Shown here: positions 1-11,185 of the stretch, in pieces | How positions within the stretch are numbered: position 1 is the first letter of the stretch | Layout of the letters: the number at the start of each line of letters is the position of its first letter | Assembly: GCA_023249255.1 (NCBI GenBank) | Contig: JAHFCY010000072.1 | Span: forward strand, 1 to 13,474 | Source of the DNA: Candidatus Lindowiibacteriota bacterium | Lineage (GTDB): Bacteria > Lindowbacteria > 2-12-FULL-62-27 | DNA: 13,474 bases | Direction: 5' to 3' | Program-made: the position numbers and the translations under genes | Notes under the pieces: model-generated | The model's database searches: none | Told to the model about the DNA's origin: nothing | Seen by the model: the letters and a program-made list of their open reading frames with translations, nothing else

Positions 1-189
1 CCCGTCGATCGTCAGAATTTTCCGAACCGGGAAGGCCTGCGCCTTTTCAACGGTCTTGTCGACACTGTTGTTGTCGACGAGGATGACTTCGAAGCACGGA
101 TAATCCTGATTGAAGACTTCCCGAAGACAGGAGGATATCCAGCGTTCCTCGTTTTTGGTTCGGATGATGATGGAGACTTTGTCCGTCAT
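1..189 (-). CDS. GT2 family glycosyltransferase, N-terminal part (runs off left edge)
   Basis: Reading the minus strand from the ATG at 189 gives 63 uninterrupted codons to the window edge. The protein begins MTDKVSIIIRTKNEERW and continues with FEVILVDNNSVDKTVEKA. This is the start of a GT-A fold glycosyltransferase of family GT2: beta-strand 1 (VSIIIRTKNEE), then the nucleotide-binding VDNNSxDKT motif at about residues 38-46. The DXD-type metal site and acceptor domain lie outside the window, so sugar specificity cannot be judged. The IIIRTKNEE opening resembles the GT2 half of the fusion at 6005-7918. The ATG overlaps the TGA of the oxidoreductase at 186-1376 by four bases (ATGA, 186-189), so the two are probably translated together. 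No clear Shine-Dalgarno is visible, which fits translational coupling. Confidence 0.9.
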   Translation of the reverse strand, partial: MTDKVSIIIRTKNEERWISSCLREVFNQDYPCFEVILVDNNSVDKTVEKAQAFPVRKILTIDG

Positions 190-1376
190 GCAGACACGCT
201 CTGCCGGTTGAAAGCCGGAACATCGATCCATTCGCCGCCGGATGCGAGCGAGCGGTTGACGGCGTCAATCACCGCGGTCGAAACCAGCGCGTCCCGGAAC
301 GTCGGCCGCCGTCCCTCAAAATCAGCCGGGGTCGCCGAACCGGCCCGAACGGCCGCCGCATCCTCGACAAATTGCCGGACGCTGCGATATCCGTAGCCGC
401 GGAACTGACTGTGTCCATCAGGCGCCGGAAGGATTTCGGAAAAATATGGATTGACTTCACGCGGGCCGTCTTCGTCTGTTGTGACCCGGACTCCACGCCG
501 TTTCTGATCGCTGTCATACCGGCCGGCGGTCCCGACGAACGATAGGGTTTGATCGGACATGGCCGTGGACGAGTCGGGGTCGATCCAATTAACGGCAATC
601 ACAGTGTGGAATCGCCCGGCCGACACGTCCTCCCATTCGATCGTCGCCTGGATGGCGTCCCATGTGTCTATGCCCTGCCGGATCAACCACCGCTTCTGGC
701 CAACCGCCATGGACCGGACAGGCCGGGCGCCCGTCACAAAATACAAAATGTCCACGTAATGCACGCCGAGATATTGAAATATGTTTGTTCGGGCGCTCCA
801 GGCTCGAAAGAGTTCCGTCGGAACCTGTTTTTTCTGGCTGTATTCGACAACCGCATAGAGCGGCAATCCGAGCCGGCCGGACTGAAAGATCGATTTAAGA
901 TGCAGATTCGCCTCGTCCCAGCGTTTGTGAAACTCCACCGCTCCGTAAACGGTGTGATCTTCGGCCAGCTTGACCAGCCGGAGGGATTCGGCCATCGTGG
1001 GCGTGAGAGGTTTGACGACCAGACAGTGAATGCCGGCTTCTATCAATTCGGCCGCGTGTTCGAAATGAAGCGGATCCGGCGTGACCACGATAGCCGCATC
1101 AACGGCATCGCCGGCGGCAAGCGCGATTCGAAACGCCTTCGAATCATCACCCGCTTGTGGAAATCCTTGAATGGACAGACGGGTTCCGAGGATATCGTTC
1201 AACCCGGTCAGTTTCTCTTGAAGATTCCGGATACTTCGAGACGTCGTCGCCGCAACCGTCACACGATCAATCAGACCGTCCCGATAACATTCAGCCAGAG
1301 AAGGAAGGATGGTGCCAAATCCTTCCCCCCCTCGACCGCAAACATACGCGCCGGCGCCCAGAACGAGGATGTGCAT
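186..1376 (-). CDS. Gfo/Idh/MocA family NAD(P)-dependent oxidoreductase
   Basis: A 396-aa protein, of normal length for this family of sugar or nucleotide-sugar oxidoreductases. The N-terminal Rossmann domain has ILVLGAGAY at residues 3-11. The segment VVTPDPLHFEHA (97-108) is the usual cofactor-side loop. The catalytic-lysine motif usually reads EKP and here reads VKP, with Lys122. The C-terminal half carries GVHYVD (204-209), matching the conserved H-x-x-D of the substrate site. The likely reaction is oxidation or reduction at one carbon of a sugar, probably on a nucleotide-activated intermediate in the cytoplasm. The exact substrate is unknown. An in-frame TAG lies only nine bases before the ATG, so 1376 is the earliest possible start. 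No Shine-Dalgarno is present, while a candidate -10 box sits just upstream. A run of seven Gs falls in codons 15-18. Confidence 0.9.
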   Translation of the reverse strand: MHILVLGAGAYVCGRGGEGFGTILPSLAECYRDGLIDRVTVAATTSRSIRNLQEKLTGLNDILGTRLSIQGFPQAGDDSKAFRIALAAGDAVDAAIVVTPDPLHFEHAAELIEAGIHCLVVKPLTPTMAESLRLVKLAEDHTVYGAVEFHKRWDEANLHLKSIFQSGRLGLPLYAVVEYSQKKQVPTELFRAWSARTNIFQYLGVHYVDILYFVTGARPVRSMAVGQKRWLIRQGIDTWDAIQATIEWEDVSAGRFHTVIAVNWIDPDSSTAMSDQTLSFVGTAGRYDSDQKRRGVRVTTDEDGPREVNPYFSEILPAPDGHSQFRGYGYRSVRQFVEDAAAVRAGSATPADFEGRRPTFRDALVSTAVIDAVNRSLASGGEWIDVPAFNRQSVSA

Positions 1377-7918: not shown

Positions 7919-8895
7919 AGATTCTTGTCACAGGCGGAGCCGGGTTCATCGGCAGCCACGTCGCGGAGAAATATCTGAAAATCGGGCACGAGGTTGTCGT
8001 CATCGATAATCTCTCCACGGGCCTGAGGGAATTTGTGCCGCGCGGGCTTCGGTTCATCGAAGCCGATCTGCGGGATTTCGGGACAATGGATCGGATCGTT
8101 TCGAAGGAGCGGGCGGAGGTCGTCAGCCATCATGCCGCGCAGATCGACGTGCGCAACTCGGTCCAACGGCCTGTCCACGACTGCCTGACCAACGTTGCGG
8201 CAACGGTGCATCTATATGAATCAGCCCGCCGACAGGGTCTTCGGAAATTCATATTCGCCTCGTCCGGCGGCGTGATTTATGGAGAACCGGACCGGATTCC
8301 GATTTCGGAGAAGACTTCCGCAGCGCCGCAGTCGCCCTATGCCGCCGCCAAACTTTCCGCAGAACACTATTTGTCCTGCTTTCATCATCTCTACGGCATT
8401 TCCTCCACCGTTCTTCGATATGCCAATGTCTATGGTCCCCGCCAGCTGGGCGGCGAAGCCGGCGTCATTTCGATTTTTTTCCGGAACATGGTGTCGGGTC
8501 GGCGGCCGGCGATTTACGGAGATGGACGGCAGCGCCGCGATTTTGTGTTTATCGACGATGTCGTGGACGCCAATGTCCGTGCGCTGGAACACGAAGGATT
8601 CGGTATATTCAACATAGGCACGGGCGTGGCAACATCCATCCGGGATCTCTACCGATCTGTCGCGGCGATCACCCGGTTCGCCGAACCTCCCCTGCACGAA
8701 CCTCCCCGGCAAGGCGAACTTTTTCAGAACGCGCTCGATGTCCGCCTCGCGTCGACGTCACTTGGATGGCGGCCGCACACGGACCTCAAGACGGGGCTTG
8801 CGGCGGCGGGCGCATGGTGGCGCGGCCGGATTCGGACTGTCCGGCGTACCCCCCCACGATCACGGAGGCGCGCTACGCCGGCTCGAGTTTTGTGA
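7915..8895 (+). CDS. NAD-dependent sugar epimerase/dehydratase (GalE-like, SDR extended family)
   Basis: A 326-aa extended short-chain dehydrogenase. It has TGGAGFIG (6-13), Asp31 in VIDNLS for NAD, the Ser117/Ser118 block FASSGGVIYGE, the catalytic pair Tyr142 and Lys146 (YAAAK), and the substrate-side LRYANVYGPRQ. It probably inverts C4 of a UDP-hexose or related nucleotide sugar; the exact sugar cannot be told. The start is GTG at 7915, overlapping the previous stop by four bases (GTGA) and preceded at eight bases by GGAG (7903-7906). A longer frame from 7861 would only add sequence shadowing the upstream gene. The family core ends near residue 303 (WWRG). The last 23 residues are an Arg-rich tail encoded partly in DNA shared with the convergent gene, suggesting a lost stop. 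Confidence 0.9.
   Translation: MKILVTGGAGFIGSHVAEKYLKIGHEVVVIDNLSTGLREFVPRGLRFIEADLRDFGTMDRIVSKERAEVVSHHAAQIDVRNSVQRPVHDCLTNVAATVHLYESARRQGLRKFIFASSGGVIYGEPDRIPISEKTSAAPQSPYAAAKLSAEHYLSCFHHLYGISSTVLRYANVYGPRQLGGEAGVISIFFRNMVSGRRPAIYGDGRQRRDFVFIDDVVDANVRALEHEGFGIFNIGTGVATSIRDLYRSVAAITRFAEPPLHEPPRQGELFQNALDVRLASTSLGWRPHTDLKTGLAAAGAWWRGRIRTVRRTPPRSRRRATPARVL
8841..8881. terminator. Inverted repeat at the convergent gene ends, possible weak terminator
   Basis: CCGGCGTA (8841-8848) pairs perfectly with TACGCCGG (8874-8881) across a 25-base loop. On the plus strand the stem is followed after six bases by TTTT (8888-8891). It lies where the epimerase and the acetyltransferase-deacetylase genes overlap tail to tail. 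The long loop and short T run make it a poor intrinsic terminator, so this is only a candidate. Confidence 0.3.
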
Positions 8896-11185
8896 TCTGG
8901 TCGATCAGGCTGAGATATTTTTCCCGCGGAAGACGAAAGAACGCTTCGTAATACCCGGAACCGTTCACCATCCAGCTTCGATACGCATTGGTTGCAGTTG
9001 TGCAGTGAACGTAATCGAAGGCCATGGACTGCGATTTGAACAGCGCGATCGCCTGCCGCTTTTTTTCCATGCAGGCAGTGATATCGACCAGAACATTGGC
9101 CGGAACCATGGACCAGGTTTCATACGAGTAGATGGCGGCGGCGCTGTCGCATGCGCGGAGGGCGCGAGACAGCAGAACATTCGCGCGCTTGTGATCGGGA
9201 TGCCGGTCGAACACGAACGGAATCCAGATACCGTCCGGTCTGAAAGCACGGATCGTGTCGGCGAGCGCCTGAACATATTCCTCGCGAATCGTGAATGTCG
9301 GCAGCGCCGGAAAATTCAAACAGACCGGATCCGGCAGGAGAAACGTACGCGTGACCGTCATGGCTTCCTCGCGCCGGACCCTGACCATCTCATCGCGGTC
9401 ATGCGGACCGCTCGCATAGGATCCATCGGTCAGATGCACGATCTGGATCGCGTGGTCGCCCGCCGCCGCTGCCTTGATCAGCGTTCCGCCGCAGCCGATG
9501 AAGTCGTCGTCCGGATGGGGCGCCAACACCATCAGGCGGCGCTCCGGAATGAGATCGACCGGTTTCGGATTCGCCACCAGCGCGTTGAACGATTCAAGAT
9601 GCGGCAAAAGAGCCGTTAGATGATTTTTGATCAGGGTGGAAAGATAGGACAGTCCCGCCGAGTCATGAGATATCGCGTTCAATTCCATGTAATGATCGTC
9701 GAGCCGTTTCAACTCGTAACTCCAGTCAGCCACCCACACCGCGGGACAGTTGTCCGGCCAGACAGTTCGCGCGAACTGAAAAATATTTTCAAACGATTCG
9801 AGAATTTCCCGGGGATGCCGGATCGACTGCGAATGAGAGGTGAAGACGATCTGATCCACATCGAGCCGGCCCAGCGCGTCCCGGACGTCGGCCGGCAGGA
9901 TCGCCGCGTCGAGTTTTCCGCGCGGATACCTCAACACGCGAAACGGCGGAAAGAGATACGTGAACGATTCCGGCAGGTCCAGGTTCGTCAGAACCGTCAG
10001 CCGTTCCGGCCCGCAGAGATTCAGCAGGCGTTCGAGGACATACGACCAGTGATCGAATGGAGACGTCCGGATCAGCAGCGTGGCGCGTTTCGACAGGGCC
10101 TTCAGGCTGTCATCCGGCTCTTTGAGCCGATACGTGAACATGCCGTACCTCCGTTCGAGGATGGGCGGTTCGGTTGCGTTCGTGAAAAACCGGTCCCCCA
10201 TGCCAAGCGTTACGCGGGCATCTTTCCATGAAACAGATGATGCGTCGATCCCCGCCGGAAGGCTCATCACCCAGCATCCCGGCGCGGACTGTTCATCCAG
10301 CGCAACGCATCCGGCTTTCTCCCACTCGGTTCGCTCGTCCTGACTCGATGTTCCCACCACCATGTGGTTGCAGGAATATTCTCCGGCAAAATCTTTCAGG
10401 CACGACGCGAAGGCACGGCAGACGTCCGGCGTGAATCCATCAGCATACACGTGATCCATCACCATCACGCATCGATGCGCATCAAGATCGCTGATTTGAA
10501 CCACGGCGTTCAACGCGGGCAGGCCGGTTGCCACGTCGACAAGCGACAAAAAAACTGGCCGGGCCAGCGGGTATCGCGCGTAACGCCAGTCCATCATATC
10601 CGCATCGAGACGGTGCATGAAGGCGGCCGGGACGTCAAACGCGTTAGGCGCCGGCGCTTCGGACGCGATCTTCGCGCGATATCGAATGCGGGTGGGCGAC
10701 GGCGGGAGCAAACGGACTGATGCCATCATCGTCCAGGACGGCACGCGCGTGAATTTGAGCGCGTGATACAACCGGTTGGCGGTCGTATTGGCGCTGGTCG
10801 TGTAGACCACGCTATCCGGGAAACGGTCTATGGCCGTCTGAAGAAGTTTCCGGCCGGCGCCGCCAAACACCGGATCAACGCAAAGTTCGGCCAATCCAAC
10901 GGCTGAAACATTCTGCCCGGCCAGACAGAACCGGCACGGAATCAATGTGAGAATCCCGGCAACCGCATCGCCAGACCAGGCGATCAGCGCATGCGGCACG
11001 CGGTCGCCGCGAAAGGGATTGTCCGATGTTTTCCAGTCCCAGATCCGTCGGTCATCTTCGAATGACGAGGAAGACGGCAAAAATTTCCGGCGGAATTTCA
11101 GGACGGCGGACACGTCTCTCCCGCTCCAGTAGTCCTCGACGATCACATCCCGGATTTGTCCGGCCGGCTGCGGTTTGGATTCCAT
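8873..11185 (-). CDS. Multidomain GNAT-like acetyltransferase / PIG-L (LmbE) family N-deacetylase
   Basis: A 770-aa protein. Residues about 12-165 look like a GNAT N-acyltransferase, with LAELCVDPVFGGAGRKLL (98-115) matching the acetyl-CoA pyrophosphate loop (GxG form) and SANTTANRLYHALKF following. Residues about 180-335 may be a second, degenerate GNAT-like unit. Residues about 365-490 resemble a Rossmann-like nucleotide-sugar fold (LLIRTSPFDHW, IVFTSHSQS) but I cannot name it. Residues about 548-770 are a PIG-L/LmbE zinc deacetylase: APHPDDDFIGCGG with His557, Asp559 and Asp560, and RHPDHKRAN with His662 and His665. The family removes N-acetyl groups from GlcNAc-like substrates. One chain thus carries apparent N-acylation and N-deacylation modules, probably for amino-sugar modification. 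The ATG at 11185 has no close Shine-Dalgarno. The 3' end overlaps the epimerase by 23 bases. Confidence 0.82.
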   Translation of the reverse strand: MESKPQPAGQIRDVIVEDYWSGRDVSAVLKFRRKFLPSSSSFEDDRRIWDWKTSDNPFRGDRVPHALIAWSGDAVAGILTLIPCRFCLAGQNVSAVGLAELCVDPVFGGAGRKLLQTAIDRFPDSVVYTTSANTTANRLYHALKFTRVPSWTMMASVRLLPPSPTRIRYRAKIASEAPAPNAFDVPAAFMHRLDADMMDWRYARYPLARPVFLSLVDVATGLPALNAVVQISDLDAHRCVMVMDHVYADGFTPDVCRAFASCLKDFAGEYSCNHMVVGTSSQDERTEWEKAGCVALDEQSAPGCWVMSLPAGIDASSVSWKDARVTLGMGDRFFTNATEPPILERRYGMFTYRLKEPDDSLKALSKRATLLIRTSPFDHWSYVLERLLNLCGPERLTVLTNLDLPESFTYLFPPFRVLRYPRGKLDAAILPADVRDALGRLDVDQIVFTSHSQSIRHPREILESFENIFQFARTVWPDNCPAVWVADWSYELKRLDDHYMELNAISHDSAGLSYLSTLIKNHLTALLPHLESFNALVANPKPVDLIPERRLMVLAPHPDDDFIGCGGTLIKAAAAGDHAIQIVHLTDGSYASGPHDRDEMVRVRREEAMTVTRTFLLPDPVCLNFPALPTFTIREEYVQALADTIRAFRPDGIWIPFVFDRHPDHKRANVLLSRALRACDSAAAIYSYETWSMVPANVLVDITACMEKKRQAIALFKSQSMAFDYVHCTTATNAYRSWMVNGSGYYEAFFRLPREKYLSLIDQITKLEPA

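Follow-up and report, generated by a model that had tools for sequence, protein, structure and literature searches.

The window analyzed here (13,474 bp) represents one entire contig (JAHFCY010000072.1) of an incomplete Lindowbacteria assembly (Candidatus Lindowiibacteriota bacterium; GCA_023249255.1). It contains a gene whose predicted product combines, within a single chain of 770 amino acids (aa), an N-terminal GNAT acyltransferase region and a C-terminal PIG-L/LmbE deacetylase domain, separated by a middle region. The gene and its parts are as follows (residue numbers refer to the window protein):

8873..11185, minus strand: complete fusion gene (770 aa) with its stop codon at 8873-8875; a full-length homologue is 50% identical
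10193..11158, minus strand: predicted tandem GNAT region (residues 10-331), recognized by a structure match to 2hv2 and by family alignment
10841..10894, minus strand: GNAT motif A, the putative acyl-coenzyme A (CoA) pyrophosphate loop (residues 98-115), with an invariant Gly111
10193..10198, minus strand: Gly330-Asp331, the internal remnant of a GD[ST]D C-terminal motif, both residues invariant in 12 aligned proteins
9551..10165, minus strand: middle region (residues ~341-545), alternating alpha/beta in the model, with a partial Rossmann-like pattern
8876..9550, minus strand: PIG-L/LmbE deacetylase domain (residues 546-770), recognized by PF02585 and a BshB-like fold
9503..9517, minus strand: His557-Pro-Asp559-Asp560-Asp, with predicted zinc ligands His557 and Asp560 and general base Asp559 (roles after PMC4101496)
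9191..9202, minus strand: His662-Pro-Asp-His665, with the predicted third zinc ligand His665; His662 is the equivalent of His144 of MshB (PMC4101496)

The sole ATG start codon of this frame is placed at 11185, three codons past an upstream stop, and the plus strand, read in the register of the fusion gene, contains several stops. Scanning of genome contigs with the whole protein yielded a match only in a second Lindowbacteria genome (Candidatus Lindowbacteria RIFCSPLOWO2_12_FULL_62_27, hereafter G001), which belongs to another genus of the same family. It encodes a protein of 760 aa, with the parts arranged in identical order and 50% identity from end to end (37% in the GNAT part, 63% in the middle region). 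The uninterrupted 770-aa frame described in the initial annotation is therefore confirmed, both by the minus-strand open reading frame and by its full-length homologue. An assembly chimera or a chance frame is ruled out, because a full-length, 50% identical protein is present in another genome together with conserved neighboring genes. Membership in a described three-domain family was also rejected, since no Pfam or NCBIfam model spans the whole chain. Literature searches, whose coverage did not extend to most subscription journals, revealed no described GNAT-PIG-L fusion; a known family with exactly this architecture, a possibility the initial annotation had allowed for, was found neither among the models nor in the literature covered.

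Residues 546-770 constitute a member of the PIG-L/LmbE superfamily and a predicted N-deacylase. Pfam model PF02585 matches residues 552-675 (E 1.7e-20; 74.3 bits versus a curated cut-off of 28.2). The two zinc-site motifs recognized on first inspection (His557-Pro-Asp-Asp and His662-x-x-His665) are intact and correctly placed, and His557, Asp559, Asp560 and His665 are invariant among 13 PIG-L proteins. The residues predicted to bind zinc (His557, Asp560 and His665) and to act as the base (Asp559) match the residue table of the superfamily (PMC4101496). Two structure models were used, one of the whole chain and one of residues 331-770 built from 13 sequences. In the latter, the domain has a per-residue confidence (predicted local distance difference test, pLDDT) of ~77-98, and its fold is closest to that of BshB (6p2t; Z 24.9, root-mean-square deviation (rmsd) 2.1 over 200 residues), followed by diacetylchitobiose deacetylases (Z ~23.6), a teicoplanin deacetylase (~19-20) and MshB (17.8). 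The domain shares with BshB, MshB and the teicoplanin deacetylase Orf2* the fold and the full HxDD...H zinc set with its general-base Asp. However, these are stand-alone thiol or antibiotic enzymes, whereas the domain in the window is the C-terminal third of a fusion encoded within a surface-glycan cluster. A thiol-cofactor enzyme of the MshB/BshB pathway was rejected, in agreement with the earlier view of the substrate, since the NCBIfam equivalog cut-offs are far from reached (BshB1, TIGR04001: 84.3 bits versus 182.5; MshB, TIGR03445: 12.9 bits versus 224). Elsewhere in the genome of the window, two further PIG-L matches are located close together (G000:C285:11143-12221; L001, L004).

The assignment of the N-terminal part to GNAT is marginal by sequence alone, because the PF00583 score is just below the cut-off (residues 42-145; E 6e-4, 20.5 bits versus 20.7). 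A structure search with the whole-chain model, in which pLDDT is mostly 65-88 over residues 12-300, matched residues 10-331 to 2hv2 (Z 21.1, 288 residues, rmsd 3.6), MAB_4324 (20.2), Eis2 (20.0), N-myristoyltransferases (NMTs; ~19-20.5) and Eis (~19-20). On the model, this part comprises both halves of an Eis/NMT-type tandem GNAT. The GNAT character proposed in the initial annotation is upheld by the modeled fold (Z ~21 over ~288 residues), but the single GNAT loop described there is replaced by a complete tandem. Eis, NMT and MAB_4324 share with the window protein the two GNAT halves across residues 10-331; they differ in sequence (~10% identity), and the window chain runs 440 residues further and has no free carboxylate end at this point. 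An SCP2-like third domain was not present among the structure matches listed, the model being of low confidence beyond residue 331. The stand-alone GNAT relatives (320-390 aa) pass Pfam Acetyltransf_9 (PF13527). In family alignments of 8 and 12 members, W49, W51, K52, G111, R201, Y202, P206, G330 and D331 are retained in all or nearly all proteins.

The last two of these residues deserve a separate description. Most stand-alone members terminate in GD[ST]D plus one or two further residues (GDTDFR, GDSDCV, GDTDFI). In the structure alignments, the window protein can be followed as far as residue 330/331, which pairs with the C-terminal end of NMT (residues 496, 492, 451) and Eis (402). The carboxylate at this end serves as the catalytic base in NMT (PMC7048800) and has been proposed as a remote base in Eis (PMC4964394). 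Both Lindowbacteria fusions retain G330-D331 and then continue for ~440 residues (439 in the window protein). Removal of the C-terminus of human NMT1 left kcat unchanged, because Glu244 took over its role (PMC7048800). By analogy, Asp331 or another acidic residue may serve as the base in the fusion, and such an internal base is the most specific mechanistic prediction of this analysis. The active-site geometry around Asp331 cannot be read from the model, because pLDDT falls below 50 immediately past this residue.

The middle region (~200 residues), described earlier as an unrecognized Rossmann-like segment, has no Pfam match; the Rossmann-like pattern is partial and model confidence is modest (mostly 50-80). 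Beyond the two fusion genomes, no convincing sequence relative was detected in 386 genomes, viral contigs or the PDB; the search of the 386 genomes gave two weak matches (E 0.004-0.008), to a 77-aa frame and an ATP-grasp-like protein. The best structural match to it is a threonine dehydrogenase, at a Z (6.4) no higher than a common fold would give. A glycosyltransferase was rejected, as there is neither a Pfam match nor a profile match to the neighboring surface-carbohydrate protein. One might speculate that the region binds a sugar nucleotide.

We also surveyed the association of the two families in other genomes, anchoring the search on the GNAT family and then seeking PIG-L nearby. A PIG-L gene lies within 5 kb of the GNAT gene, or is fused to it, at 7 of the 41 GNAT loci (10 + 10 + 21), a rough count since some contigs end early. 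Approximately 0.15 would be expected from an estimated density of ~1.2 PIG-L genes per 3.3 Mb, or 0.5 at four per genome. The two are adjacent separate genes in four genomes (G078, G220, G527 and G588), with the G527 pair surrounded by NeuB, aminotransferase and dehydratase genes, and are ~1.5 kb or less apart in two others (G712 and G715). In a gammaproteobacterium (G607; L179:6004-8601), an 866-aa protein comprises PIG-L (residues 21-135), glycosyltransferase family 2 (GT2; 244-368) and GNAT (~560-866) domains. This protein carries the same two enzyme families as the window protein in one chain, but their order is reversed, its center is a recognizable GT2 and its GNAT part keeps a C-terminus (GDTDFI); it is a fusion independent of that in the window. 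A further cluster with the order GNAT - flippase - PIG-L (G026) was found through PIG-L and is excluded from the 41-locus count.

Other fusions of each family were also observed. GNAT family members are fused behind S-adenosylmethionine (SAM)-dependent methyltransferase domains in gammaproteobacteria (L161:7836-9602, L174:7023-8786), and PIG-L domains to GT2 or GT4 glycosyltransferases in unrelated genomes (L030, L117, L119, L123, L170, L172). The genuine fusion partners observed for PIG-L were GT2, GT4 and NagB; six other long PIG-L proteins (L116, L118, L120, L122, L125, L128) contain no further Pfam domain and look like upstream-extended frames.

The presence of both domains with their key residues, the same architecture in a second genome and the recurrent pairing favor the interpretation of the fusion as a bifunctional N-acyl-exchange enzyme that tailors an amino sugar of a surface glycan, to which we assign a probability of roughly 55%. 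In the proposed mechanism, the PIG-L domain, with one zinc ion held by His557, Asp560 and His665 and with Asp559 as the base, would strip the N-acetyl or another N-acyl group from the amino sugar, and the tandem GNAT would then cap the freed amine with a different acyl group from acyl-CoA. Following the pattern of Eis and NMT, the CoA thioester would be bound by the first GNAT half, and the shape of the acceptor site would be set by the second. The middle region may hold the substrate or link the two sites, and having both activities in one chain would protect the free amine against loss or re-acetylation by other enzymes. We infer that both domains act on one nitrogen and that the donor is an acyl-CoA rather than an aminoacyl-tRNA. 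As for the sugar, a nonulosonic acid or its precursor is one candidate, because NeuB-type genes accompany the G527 pair and, at a distance of ~15 kb, the fusion gene of G001.

Several observations weigh against N-acyl exchange: (i) the pyrophosphate loop of the window GNAT is devoid of its usual Gln/Arg, (ii) the free C-terminus kept by the relatives has been lost, (iii) the middle region has no assigned family, (iv) 34 of the 41 GNAT loci have no PIG-L nearby, hence the GNAT family does not need PIG-L, and (v) the observed enrichment is inflated, because both families concentrate in polysaccharide clusters.

Among the alternatives, two separate steps are conceivable though unlikely: PIG-L would deacetylate one amine, while GNAT would acylate another amine or a hydroxyl of the same repeat unit (e.g. 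of a diamino sugar or nonulosonic acid). The families do occur apart, GNAT being mostly without PIG-L and sometimes fused to methyltransferases, and the genes surrounding the G527 pair suit sugars that carry several amino groups; however, direct adjacency and two fusions of opposite order suggest that the steps are coupled. We consider it distinctly unlikely that only the deacetylase is active and that the tandem GNAT has degenerated into a binding or scaffold module. The lower identity of the GNAT part (37%, against 63% in the middle region) would fit such decay, as would the first two observations listed above. An internal acidic residue could nevertheless stand in for the carboxylate, as Glu244 does in truncated human NMT1 (PMC7048800). 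Moreover, both fusions have retained residues, G330-D331 among them, whose conservation extends to distant stand-alone members. Use of aminoacyl-tRNA or another activated amino acid by the GNAT half, which would add e.g. L-alanine to the freed amine, appears very improbable: FemABX and LFTR proteins, which are related in fold, do take aminoacyl-tRNA as the donor, but the nearest folds, Eis and NMT, use acyl-CoA.

N-acyl exchange has parallels in the synthesis of glycans and glycoconjugates. The pairs LpxC/LpxD, NodB/NodA and teicoplanin Orf2*/Orf11* first remove an N-acetyl group and then attach another acyl group to the nitrogen, but they are separate proteins, mostly of other folds. The fusion, with GNAT and PIG-L in one chain, is a variation on such pairs. 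The exchange put forward in the initial annotation gains from the recurrence of the GNAT/PIG-L pairing, but it is less isolated than was assumed: glycan pathways are known to contain a deacetylase and an N-acyltransferase as separate proteins (LpxC/LpxD), and a further such pair has been proposed (dnpA/PA5003).

In Pseudomonas, PA5003 (GNAT) and PA5002/dnpA (PIG-L) form one transcription unit (PMC6048251), located in the lipopolysaccharide (LPS)-core cluster (PMC8005017). Compared by published description, they resemble the fusion as a GNAT and a PIG-L protein of a surface-glycan transcription unit; they differ in being two genes instead of one chain, and the substrate of DnpA and the function of PA5003 are unproven. 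The galactosamine (GalN) of the Pseudomonas core is N-alanylated, and it has been speculated that WaaG adds N-acetylgalactosamine, DnpA deacetylates it and an unidentified ligase or transferase adds L-alanine, with LpxC/LpxD cited as the precedent for deacetylation and subsequent N-acylation (PMC10579960). This N-L-alanyl group, together with the co-transcription of PA5003 and dnpA, speaks for an aminoacyl donor of the GNAT half (PMC6048251, PMC8005017, PMC10579960). Since fusions point to working partners, the recurrence of GNAT with PIG-L names a candidate partner for DnpA, and by analogy the pairing may help to explain the open acylation step in the LPS core. Tentatively, and as a possibility rather than a probability, the association could be regarded as a widespread N-acyl-exchange module of bacterial surface glycans, with an NMT/Eis-like tandem GNAT acylating the amine that its PIG-L partner frees, occurring as gene pairs and at least two independent fusions and perhaps including PA5003-dnpA, with an internal Asp replacing the C-terminal carboxylate in the window fusion. 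If PA5003-dnpA belongs to it, the module would supply the missing acylation of the core GalN. The pairing also suggests a chemistry open to test, and the fusion provides a single protein that could be purified and assayed for both steps at once. Specialists would be interested chiefly in how the pairing recurs and in its bearing on DnpA/PA5003.

Further annotated genes of the window fit a surface-glycan context:

186..1376, minus strand: Gfo/Idh/MocA oxidoreductase, 62% identical to its homologue in the second genome
1473..3359, minus strand: protein of surface-carbohydrate biosynthesis that matches TIGR04326 weakly and is 45% identical to its counterpart in the second genome
3387..4181, plus strand: KdsB-type CMP-ulosonate cytidylyltransferase, with a 61% identical counterpart in the second genome
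6005..7918, plus strand: GT2 glycosyltransferase joined in one chain (637 aa) to a zinc-dependent alcohol dehydrogenase; the second genome encodes the same combination at 61% identity
11242..12165, plus strand: GT2 glycosyltransferase gene, oriented divergently with respect to the fusion gene; its homologue in the second genome is 52% identical

Homologues of these five neighbors are found around the fusion gene of the second genome, in which the Gfo/Idh/MocA gene is placed directly downstream of it. The surface-glycan cluster is thus partly conserved, and the polysaccharide setting suggested earlier is supported. The surface-glycan region of G001 is flanked by two radical SAM/SPASM proteins with a weak spiro-SPASM match (L129:13004-14725, L130:13591-15309).

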